This document shows, in pieces, positions 33,978 to 57,400 of a DNA stretch of 64,000 bases. Every line of letters begins with the position of its first letter. The stretch's first letter is position 1. The position numbers were made by a program, and so were the translations under genes. Below the pieces are notes generated by a model. That model had not been told where the DNA came from. It did no database searches and saw nothing but the letters and a program-made list of their open reading frames with translations. The DNA is from Arbacia lixula (lineage: Eukaryota > Echinodermata > Echinoidea > Arbacioida > Arbaciidae): positions 22,092,092-22,156,091 of the forward strand of contig OZ022588.1 of NCBI GenBank assembly GCA_963669155.1. Reading direction: 5' to 3'.

Positions 33978-34439
33978 TGTCTCGCCCACCGGAGGTGAAG
34001 GCGAGACTAAGGGATCCAAATGGCGTCCGTCCGTCGTCCGTCCGTCGTCCGTCGTCCGTCGTCCGTCACAAATGTTAAAGTTTACCTGCAAGACTCTCTT
34101 TTGACAAATAACTTCACATGGGTTGCTTGGATTACAACCTAACTTGGGTCATAGATGCACTGGGGGTACCTTCATGTTATGGTGCCGTTGGAGGTCACAA
34201 GATAAGGTCAAAGGTCATTTGAGGTCATACGTTAAAGTTTACCTGCAAGACTCTCTTTTGACAAATAACTTCACATGGGTTGCTTGGATTACAACCTAAC
34301 TTGGGTCATACCCTTACAGAAATCCAAGCTTGCAACAAGCTTGCAACAAGCTTGCGGTGAGCGGTGAGCAGCAATCTTAATAAGCGTGCGTTCACAAATT
34401 TAAGATTGCAGACCTTGCTTGCAATCTTGCTGCAAGCTA

Positions 34440-34740
34440 ACCGCAAGCTTGCAGCAAGCTTGCAGGATCTGCAGTTGCATCCTGCAAGCTTGCAGCAAGC
34501 TTGCAGGGCCCGAGGTTGCACCCTGCAAGCTTGCAGCGAGCTTGCAGGGCCTGAGGTTGCAACCTGCAAGCTTGCAGCGAGCTTGCAGGGCCCGAGGTTG
34601 CAACCTGCAAGCTGGCAGCAAGCTTGCGGGATCCGAAGTTGCACCCTGCAAGCTCGCAGCAAGCTTGCAAGACTGGACGTCATATCCTGCAAACTTGCTG
34701 CGAGCTTGCAGGCCTCATGTTCCGCAAGCTTGCAGGGTGC
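34440..34740. repeat. 41 bp minisatellite with CTGCAAGCTTGCAG palindrome
   Basis: CCTGCAAGCTTGC recurs at 34481, 34522, 34563, 34604 and 34645, exactly 41 bp apart, then decays. Each unit holds two AAGCTTGC words. Several frames stay open because the unit lacks stops. They are not genes. Confidence 0.85.
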
Positions 34741-35449
34741 AACCTCGCGACCTGCAAGTTGGCAGGACTCAATCTTAGGTCCTGCAAACTTGCAGACTTG
34801 CAGGACATGTATTCTGTACTAGTAACCTTATTCCTCTAAGCTTGCTGGACATAAACATGGTTACACACGTAAGCTTGTAAATATTTATGTAAATATAAGG
34901 CCCATAAGCACCACAATTGCACCCTGTAAATTAAAACAGTACATTACTTGATAAATGTTAGCACATGACACTAATTCATGCATACGCCCCAAAAGTGTCA
35001 AATCATATTTAATCATTTCAAGCCCATTTCTTTTTAAATCTTCACCAAATCTTTAGTGTTTTTATAATGAAACTAGACAATATACAGACACTAACAACTT
35101 ATTGTTCTGACCCTTGCCAGAACTCAACATCACCTATATAGCTGAGTTAAAACAGATATTCATCTGATATCCATCCCTTGCCATAGATATGCAGTTTTGA
35201 AAATATTCTAATCATCTTCATTTAGATAGAGGTCACATGTAAGTGACATGGAACTTACCATTAATATATGACAAATGCATGCCTAGATGCCGACCAAGAC
35301 CAAAAGGTAAACAATTATTGCATTAAAGATAATGTTGATATATTTTTGCCTGTATTCAGTTTACATTTCAGTGTACATTACCATTGTGGTCCAAATCAAG
35401 ATCCATTATTGTTTGTTGTGGCCACCCAGGTCGAAATTCCCATAGAAAC

Positions 35450-36520
35450 CAGTAGAAACCAGTAGAGACTGTCTACTGGTTTCTACTGGTCCAGTAGAGT
35501 CTACTGGTCTGAAGAGGAACTACGAAATCAAACCAGTAGAAACCAGTAGAAACCAGTAGAGTCTAATGTGTTGAAGACCAGTAGAAACCATTAGAATCCA
35601 CTGGTCTCTAATGGTTTCTACTGGTTTGATTTTGTTTTTTTCACACTACTTCTCAAACCACTAGATCTCACTGGTTTCTATTGGTTTCTACTGGTCTTCA
35701 ATACCATTAGAATCCACTGGTCTCTAATGGTTTCTACTGCTTTGACTTTGTTTTTTTTACACTCCTTTTCAAACCATTAGATCTCACTGGTTTCTATTGG
35801 TTTCTACTGGTCTTCAATACCATTAGAATCCACTGGTCTCTAATGGTTTCAACTGGTTTGACTTTGTTTTTTTTTTCACACTAATAGAAACTAGTGAGAT
35901 ATAATGTTTTGAAAAGGAGTGTGAAAAATTCAAAGTCAAACCAGGAGAAACCATTACTAATAGAAACTAGTGAAATATAATGTTTTGAAAAGGAGTTTGA
36001 AAAATTCAAAGTCAAACCAGGAGAAACCATTTAGAGACCAGTGAAACTTAATGGTTTGAAAAGGAGTGTGAAAAATACAGAGTCAAACCAGTAGAAACCA
36101 TTAGAGACCAGTGAATTCTACTGGTGGAGACCAGTATAAACCAATAGAAACCAGTAAGACCTAATGGTTTGAAAAGGAGTGTCAAAAATTCAAAGTCAAA
36201 CCAGTAGAAACCAATAGAAACCAGTGAGATCTAATGGTTTGAAAAGGAGTGTGAAAAATACAAAGTCAAACCAGTAGAAACCATTAGAGACCAGTGAATT
36301 CTCCTGGTATTGGAGATCAGTAGAAACCAATAGAAACTAGTGAGATATAATGTTTTGAAAAGGAGTATGAAAAATACAAAGTCAAACCAGTAGAAACCAA
36401 TAGAAACCAGTGAGATCTAATGGTTTGAAAAGGAGTGTGAAAAATACTAAGTCAAAGCAATAGAAACCATTAGAGACCAGTGAATTCTACTGGTAATGGA
36501 GACCAGTAGAAACCAATAGA
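35450..36520. repeat. head-to-head satellite palindrome of CCAGTAGAAACC units
   Basis: Left of about 35878 the units read GGTTTCTACTGG with AAACCATTAGATCTCACTGG. Right of it the same units read inverted (CCAGTGAGATCTAATGGTTT, AAAAGGAGTGTGAAAAAT, AAAGTCAAACC). The unit is about 120 bp, itself built from the 12-mer CCAGTAGAAACC. Arms are roughly 0.4 and 0.65 kb. Confidence 0.8.
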
Positions 36521-36985
36521 AATAGAGATGCTCATGAATATTCATGCATGTATTTACGTGTCCTAATTTTGTACTTTTAAATAGATAACCTCCCCCTAAC
36601 CAGATAAAAGGAATTTTACCAAGTAGTGATTTCAAGTTTAAACATAAAATAGTGAATGTCACCTACTTAAGTGAAGACAATAATGATAATAACAACAAAA
36701 ATGATCTTCTTAAATGTAAGTTGTAGTAACCAATATCTCATGAACCTTATAACCGTACTGCTATATATATGAAAGTCTGTGAAGGAGAGACCAGGAATTA
36801 GGATAGGTATAGGATAGAATAGGAATAAATATAGGATTGGATAGGATTAGGTTAAAACGTTAAGGAAATATGCCATAATTCGGATTATCATATACTAAAT
36901 TTAAATCGATATTTCATCAATATTTATAATTTTGATTCATATTGGTCTCCTGATGGCTCCAGTAGGTGTTCTACTAGTTTCTACT

Positions 36986-37141
36986 GGTAAGCTTGCAGCA
37001 AGCTTGCGGCAAGCTTGCGGCAAGCTCACTCTGCAAGCTTGCAGCAAGGTTGCAGGTTGCAAGCTTACTAGCTTGCAGCAAGGTTGCAGGTTACGCGCTA
37101 TATTCTTTGCCCTGATTGGGCAAAGCTTGCAGCAAGCTTGC
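36986..37141. repeat. AAGCTTGC repeat cluster near the 3' end of the insertion
   Basis: AAGCTTGCAGC and AAGCTTGCGGC words, matching the minisatellite at the insertion's other end. The two clusters form subterminal repeats. Confidence 0.75.
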
Positions 37142-37211
37142 AGATTTTTCTATAAGGGTAGATGCACTGGGGGTACCTTCATGTTATGGTGCCGTTGGAG
37201 GTCACAAGATA

Positions 37212-37695
37212 AGGTCAAAGGTCATTTGAGGTCATACGTTAAAGTTTACCTGCAAGACTCTCTTTTGACAAATAACTTCACATAGGTTGCTTGGATTACA
37301 ACCTAACTTGGGTCATAGATGCACTGGGGGTACCTTCATGTTATGGTGCCGTTGGAGGTCACAAGATAAGGTCAAAGGTCATTTGAGGTCATACGTTAAA
37401 GTTTACCTGCAAGACTCTCTTTTGACAAATAACTTCACATAGGTTGCTTGGATTACAACCTAACTTGGGTCATAGATGCACTGGGGGTACCTTCATGTTA
37501 TGGTGCCGTTGGAGGTCACAGGATAAGGTCAAAGGTCATTTGAGGTCATACGTTAAAGTTTACTTGCAAGACTCTCTTATCACACATAACTCATCACATG
37601 TTGCTACAATGGCAATCAAACTTGGATGATGGATGCACTGGGGGCACCTGCATGTTATTGTGCTGTAAGAGGTCACATGATAAGGTCAAAGGTCA
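37212..37695 (+). promoter_or_regulatory. array of DR1 nuclear-receptor-type sites, one per 157 bp unit
   Basis: AGGTCAAAGGTCA lies at 37212-37224, 37369-37381, 37526-37538 and 37683-37695, with a fifth at 34205-34217 before the insertion. Each is followed by TTTGAGGTCA. The motif is a consensus DR1 (RXR, HNF4, COUP-TF type). Binding is inference only. Confidence 0.65.
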
Positions 37696-37840
37696 TTTGA
37701 GGTCATACATTAAAGTTTACTTGCAAGACTCTTGGTGAAGGCTTCCTAACTTGTGCACAGAATTGTGTGAGGGATACAATTCTTTTGCGTAGCAACGGAG
37801 ATAGCGATATTTCTGGTTATTTTCGCAAGTGGGCGAGACA

Positions 37841-54227: not shown

Positions 54228-54765
54228 ACATTTTTCAATTTATTTCATCTACCCCATCCCCTTTTCCCTCATATGTACACTCTTTTGATAGCACACCATA
54301 CATGTACACATACACACAGAAAGTTACTTCTCAATTTATTTCCTATACCCCCACCCCGTTTCCCCCCTACACTCTTTAGCTTACCCTACGTATACAAACA
54401 CATATACACACAGACAGATACTTCTCAATTTATTTCCTATACCCCTACCCCCTTATCCCCATACACTCTTTAGCTTACCCTACGTATACAAACACACATA
54501 CACAGAGACAGTTACTTCTCAATTTATTTCCTATACCCCTACCCCCTTTCCCCCATACACTCCTTAGCTTACCCTATGTACACAAACACACATACACAGA
54601 GACAGTTACTTCTCAATTTATTTCCTATACCCCTACCCCCTTTCCCCCATACACTCCTTAGCTTACCCTATGTACACAAACACACATACACAGAGACAGT
54701 TACTTCTCAATTTATTTCCTATACCCCCTTTCCCCCATACACTCTTTAGCTTACCCTATATGCTA
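54228..54765. repeat. 94 bp minisatellite, about six units
   Basis: CTTCTCAATTTATTTCC recurs at 54328, 54421, 54515, 54609 and 54703 (93, 94, 94, 94 bp). Each is followed by TACCCC, CATACACTC, TTAGCTTACCCTA and ACACAAACACACATACA. The last units are nearly identical. Confidence 0.9.
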
Positions 54766-56859: not shown

Positions 56860-57400
56860 ACATTGTAATTAGAATTTTTGTCAAAAGTCATTTGGAAACA
56901 AGGTTTTCAAACATCAGGGATAATTGTTTTTGATAAACTAGTGACTCAACATAACATGTGCTTGCTCTGCACGTCTAGAATGTGTATGAAAAACGCTTAC
57001 ATAATTATGATTTTTGTCAAAAAGGTACTTTCGAAACAAGGTTTTCATACATTAGGGATTTATTGTTTTTGATTAACTTATGACTCGACATAACATGTGC
57101 TTGTGCTCTTCATGTCTTGAATGTGTGTATGAAATACCTTTCAAAATTGGAATTTTTGTCAAAAGTCATTCACAAGCAAGGTTTTCAAACGTCAGGATTT
57201 TTATTGTGGGGGATAAACTCATTACTCAATATTATATTTTTGCTGATTACACTTTATAGTTGTGTCGTATTTTGTGTCTTTATACACCTTCAAAACTAAA
57301 CTGTTTTAAGGCAAAAGGTGTTTCGAAACAATTTTTATGAAAATCAGGGATTCATTGCATTCATGAACTCTTGCTTTTTAGAGATGAAGGATATATCTAT
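56860..57400 (+). repeat. degenerate tandem repeat of about 140 bp, four units
   Basis: TTTTTGTCAAAAG, AACAAGGTTTTCA, CAGGGATT and ATTGTTTTTGAT blocks recur in order at about 56875, 57011, 57153 and 57300. Confidence 0.75.

Follow-up and report, generated by a model that had tools for sequence, protein, structure and literature searches.

The window analysed here is a 64-kb stretch of the 607-Mb genome of Arbacia lixula (C13:22092092-22156091). Within it, a tandem array of 157-bp units is interrupted by a 2848-bp insert at 34311-37158, the parts of which are listed in Table 1. The insert is bounded by terminal inverted repeats of 12 bp, with 11 of 12 bases paired, and TA-flanked inverted ends are indeed found inside the 157-bp array, as the first-pass annotation of this DNA had described. 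When the insert and one TA were removed in silico, the marker GTTAAAGTTTAC was found at offsets 74, 231, 388, 545 and 702, a spacing of 157 bases throughout, including across the join. The empty site is thus exactly restorable, and the window copy would have entered a 157-bp array that previously lacked such an insert. The two ends had been described as a pair; they are paired and not fully alike, as position 7 is C in one and T in the other. Each of 35 end pairs among the genomic matches listed likewise has one C end and one T end at this position.

The insert-bearing 157-bp array is enclosed by an inverted pair, TGTCTCGCCCAC / GTGGGCGAGACA (window 33978-37840), around which no clear target duplication was seen. 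The host array may itself be the interior of another array-bearing transposon.

Table 1. Features of the insert and of its host array (positions in the window; family A is the transposon family of the insert, family B a related one)
Feature	Position	Strand	Remarks
Host 157-bp array, left part	34074..34310	+	
Target-site duplication, left copy, TA	34309..34310	.	matching 2-bp flanks in 24/25 complete family A and B copies
5' terminal inverted repeat CCCTTACAGAAA	34311..34322	+	starts the insert; recurs in other copies
5' subterminal repeats: GCAAGCTTGC palindrome and 41-bp tandem unit	34325..34850	+	unit number differs among copies
41-bp tandem unit	34439-34712		within the 5' subterminal repeats
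Family-A-specific stretch, mostly unique	34822..35430	+	markers 34822-34856 and 35278-35312
Fold-back core, tandem units of 70, 116 and 186 bp	35436..36522	+	unit number differs among copies
Inverted arms of the core	35585-35811 and 36200-36426		90% complementary
116-bp unit array	35587-35874		within the core
186-bp unit array	35959-36522		within the core
Unique stretch common to family A copies	36523..36988	+	11-copy alignment
3' subterminal repeats, AAGCTTGC type	36989..37145	+	
3' terminal inverted repeat	37147..37158	-	reads CCCTTATAGAAA on the minus strand; TTTCTATAAGGG ends at 37158
Target-site duplication, right copy, TA	37159..37160	.	
Host 157-bp array, right part	37159..37732	+	3.7 units

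Both ends of the insert are adjoined by AAGCTTGC repeats, which occur 19 times within it versus once in the remaining 61 kb of the window; the same subterminal repeat is therefore present near both ends, as had been noted. The tandem arrays reported inside the element are also real, with units of 41, 116 and 186 bp, and the units of the core are arranged partly head to head. Two further arrays lie elsewhere in the window. Inspection of the sequence of one (54306-54758, 94-bp unit, 4.9 copies) and a scan for inverted repeats in the other (56866-57196, 139-bp unit, 2.4 copies) gave nothing clear as to their origin.

The insert is one copy of a multicopy family

The left-side family-A marker (34822-34856) was found at 51 places genome-wide, 45 of them exact, and the middle marker (35278-35312) at 47 places. 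Searching the genome at the DNA level with bases 1-690 of the insert yielded 132 candidates. Forty were scored, the window copy among them, and each aligns from base 1 as far as base 688 or 690, at 85-100% identity. The identities of 85-91% seen for some candidates probably stem mostly from array differences. Twenty of the forty (L022-L041, the window copy again included) were recovered as loci without requiring the terminal sequence in the search, and all 20 begin with the exact 12 bases. Constancy of the ends holds for the 5' end in these loci and fails in a further copy, L051, whose 5' end carries one substitution.

A pattern that combines the end with the subterminal repeat matched 62 + 91 places, a count that includes some ends twice, versus 0 + 0 for the reversed control. 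Among the matches listed, which extend through part of C15, there are at least 78 distinct ends: 35 convergent pairs, plus 8 ends that lack a partner. One of these 8 belongs to the window copy, which goes unpaired because its 3' repeat differs by one base. As the pattern requires the ends, the 35 pairs demonstrate pairing and not constancy of the ends. The family therefore comprises at least 35 end pairs 1155-4601 bp long; of the 35 listed, 23 measure 2750-4601 bp and 12 measure 1155-2179 bp. The further end-bearing copies proposed as a genome check are thus present in numbers, and the window insert belongs to a genuine family of non-coding transposons, which we term family A.

Two of the first 11 family A copies, L042 (interrupted by another insert) and L051 (truncated), show no exact 3' end in the sequence retrieved. 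With these incomplete copies excluded, the remaining nine (the window copy and L043-L050) diverge by 1.7% on average (0.6-2.4%) in their unique part, which we read as a young burst. At the break point of the truncated L051 lies a further short array, three identical units of 62 bp (GGTGGTCTGCCATGCCATGGCAGATCACC...) that close the copy at about 1640-1820, read in the orientation of family A.

Core arrays differ in length between copies

Comparison of the internal satellites between copies, a check proposed at first pass, revealed that they differ. Core units were counted by profile on both strands in the window copy, ten other copies and L058-L061 (n=15); the last four were picked for their extreme lengths from the matches to the pattern of end plus subterminal repeat, and the range obtained is not a frequency. 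There are 2 core units in L058 (1161 bp), 11 in the window copy (8 + 3) and 30 in L061 (4601 bp), while the 4 units of the truncated L051 count only loosely. By TRF, the 186-bp unit is present in 13.1 copies in L061 versus 3.0 in the window copy. Ten intervals were cut from L061, and the eight unbroken units among them are 99-100% alike; compared with a single window unit they are 97-98% alike. This likeness is as expected of recent local multiplication. L061 has also lost most of an inverted arm, so the change in length is not simple addition. The 5' 41-bp array varies as well, from 4.6 to 7.6 copies among family A copies. Since copies of a young family hold between 2 and 30 units, array length changes within the transposon itself, whether growth took place before or after insertion.

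Target-site duplication and superfamily

We examined the flanks of 27 family A and B copies, 25 of which have both ends (L042 and L051 lack one; the incomplete family B element L021 was not counted). The 2-bp flanks match in 24 of the 25 complete copies, and the 3-bp flanks also match in just one. The exception is a family A copy, L049, with the unlike flanks GT/AC. Thirteen kinds of 2-bp duplication were observed: TA accounts for 5 of the 24, and the other 19 are AT, AA, TT, AC, GT, TG, AG, TC, CG, CC, CA and CT. The element duplicates any 2 bp of free sequence, and the TA of the window is one instance; TA as a specific target is not supported.

A reading of the insert as an assembly join, or as a chance pair of 12-mers, gains its only footing from the bare 12-mer, which with up to 1 mismatch occurs at 1708 + 1619 places, barely above the 1562 + 1493 of its reversed control. 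The counts of end plus subterminal repeat and the exactly restored 157-base register refute it, and we regard it as scarcely credible. The TA at each side of the window copy could by itself suggest a Tc1/mariner-type transposon, which targets TA, but just 5 of 24 matching duplications are TA, and the variety of the duplications makes this identity so improbable that we reject it. PiggyBac, whose target is TTAA, is ruled out by 2-bp duplications of free sequence; taken together, the varied duplications exclude the TA- and TTAA-target superfamilies.

More serious is the possibility that family A is a non-autonomous member of CACTA/EnSpm (CMC) whose terminus has changed. Like CACTA/EnSpm elements, family A and B copies combine short ends and a short duplication with long arrays of subterminal repeats, and the genome contains two Transposase_21 (PF02992) loci, in L054 (7253-9676, plus strand) and L056 (8340-9815, minus strand), one an 808-aa open frame and the other interrupted by TGA. 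CACTA/EnSpm elements, however, end in CACTA or CACTG, and the terminus in the copies examined is CCCTT. None of the family A or B ends, which read CCCTTA[CT][AG]GAA, occurs within the 18 kb fetched around either Transposase_21 locus. A scan of these loci for inverted ends with duplications gave weak pairs, none convincing (5 and 10 at two settings on C21, 1 and 5 on C19; the counts are uncontrolled). We therefore consider membership of this superfamily possible and somewhat doubtful.

Related families and the search for an autonomous partner

The genome also contains larger elements with paired, exact CCCTTACAGAAA ends, thirteen of which, 6.1-10.3 kb long and 12 of them whole, were chosen by eye from at least 100 CCCTTACAGAAA places listed. 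We refer to these as family B. Their first 13 bases are those of the family A 5' end, and their subterminal repeats are of the ACCATTGG type; the interiors differ. Comparison with L009 and L020 over long pieces separated family B into two groups, one 97-98% alike and the other mostly 87-94%.

The size of these elements made them candidates for the autonomous relatives of family A, and we rejected them as such. Frames were examined at 150 aa or more in all, and at 85 aa or more in four elements; the longest stop-to-stop frame in the 13 loci is 179 aa and begins in the flank. A six-frame Pfam search of L009, a 9.2-kb element, matched no transposase family, its sole hit being MalF_N_TM at an E of 0.034, under the cut-off for that family. 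By their frames, and in L009 also by Pfam, family B elements look non-coding; intron-split genes with short exons are possible in the other 12. The autonomous relative with a transposase anticipated at first pass was thus not found among the family B frames, in the Pfam search of L009 or at the two Transposase_21 loci.

The piece that interrupts L042 from about base 2560 begins CCCTTATGGAACAATCACAGTG and carries 137/132-bp tandem units. Judged from this one end, it is probably a member of a third family, C, with a like terminus.

The core array is common to a more numerous repeat

A 33-base piece of the core unit, searched with up to 3 mismatches, was found at 1272 + 1306 places in the genome versus 0 + 0 for the control. 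The left edge of the core occurs at 171 + 174 places, 345 in all, compared with 47 for the marker 124 bp to its left and 51 for the marker further left. The core and its edge are therefore common to another, more numerous dispersed repeat, which we call D; on these counts the left end of D is between window positions 35312 and 35436. Of 39 unit loci listed on C1-C4, 30 lie no more than 3.5 kb from the edge, and 8 coincide with family-A positions, one such position being deduced from an unpaired end. Of the 2578 places of the unit, 100 exact ones were listed, from C1 into part of C8. Outside family A, these show at most 3 exact units together and no long free satellite; arrays of diverged units would escape such a listing.

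Family A may give rise to satellites, as suggested at first pass, but the array is present at many loci outside the family, and family A may have taken it over instead of creating it. Taken further, the core would be a separate and far more numerous mobile element, D, nested in or swapped into the ancestor of family A; the array would have been born in this putative element, and family A would be a mere carrier. The excess of core edges over family-A markers and the small share of C1-C4 loci at family-A positions both point in this direction, but the D loci could instead be older, decayed A-like elements. On present counts we find an origin in D moderately probable.

Discussion

It had been claimed that the insert is a non-autonomous transposon, and its non-coding sequence, paired ends, 2-bp duplications and presence in many copies support this. 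We conclude that family A is very probably a non-autonomous cut-and-paste DNA transposon with free 2-bp duplications that is moved in trans and whose core has been shortened or enlarged during its spread. The copies show directly that the ends are inverted, that 2 bp of free sequence are duplicated, that the family has spread to many copies and that arrays differ in length. Movement in trans we infer, because no transposase with family A ends was found. Most likely, a transposase encoded elsewhere would bind the CCCTTAYRGAA ends and the AAGCTTGC subterminal repeats and move the element. Recognition of an end together with subterminal palindromes is suggested by analogy with CACTA elements (PMC8978399) and with the binding sites discussed for Tetris/Galileo (PMC4079207). 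The element would carry with it the fold-back core of 70-, 116- and 186-bp tandem units, in which unequal exchange or slippage would shorten some copies and enlarge others.

That transposons carry, spread and enlarge satellites is already established (PMC9659126, PMC12628747, PMC4079207, PMC7492417, PMC8978399). miDNA4 of Xenopus, classed as a Tc1-mariner MITE (PMC9659126), contains an internal satellite that ranges from a single unit to many (PMC9659126, PMC12628747). Family A resembles it in being non-autonomous, with inverted ends and an internal unit number that varies between copies, but duplicates any 2 bp, is 1.2-4.6 kb long and has a fold-back core with separate subterminal repeats. 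Tetris, a fold-back transposon of Drosophila virilis, has 220-bp repeats inside long inverted repeats and has seeded kb-long satellites (PMC4079207). Like Tetris, family A is non-autonomous and fold-back, with tandem repeats that change in number and ends common to another family, whereas its core sits mid-element and no long free satellite was found among the matches listed. The Jozin elements of Chenopodium are CACTA-like, with a 171-bp satellite array and a Transposase_21 (PMC8978399). Family A shares their combination of subterminal repeats several hundred bases long and an internal satellite array, but the family A and B copies examined lack a CACTA terminus, and no transposase was found in them. 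The oyster Cg_HINE elements are non-autonomous Helentrons built of end and array modules that disperse tandem arrays (PMC7492417). Family A, also non-autonomous, carries and disperses tandem arrays as they do; unlike Helentrons, it has inverted ends and a target-site duplication. With its inverted ends, 2-bp duplications in 24 of 25 copies and 2-30 units in 15 copies, family A has features of the miDNA4 and Tetris kind and is clearly a further case of a known route by which repeats are spread and enlarged.

What this genome adds is a clean series of copies and a set of families with one common terminus. Families A, B and, judged from one end, C are at least three non-coding families that have the terminus CCCTTA[CT][AG]GAA in common and unrelated subterminal tandem repeats. 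A speculative and, in our view, unlikely extension is that they represent a so far unrecognised lineage of transposases, one that can insert anywhere, duplicates 2 bp on doing so, and tolerates or selects for ever-changing, satellite-like binding arrays; if this were true, the shared-terminus transposon system would itself keep producing new tandem repeats. In family A, copies about 1-2% apart hold from 2 to 30 units, and the earliest steps of array growth can thus be put in order and tested within one genome.
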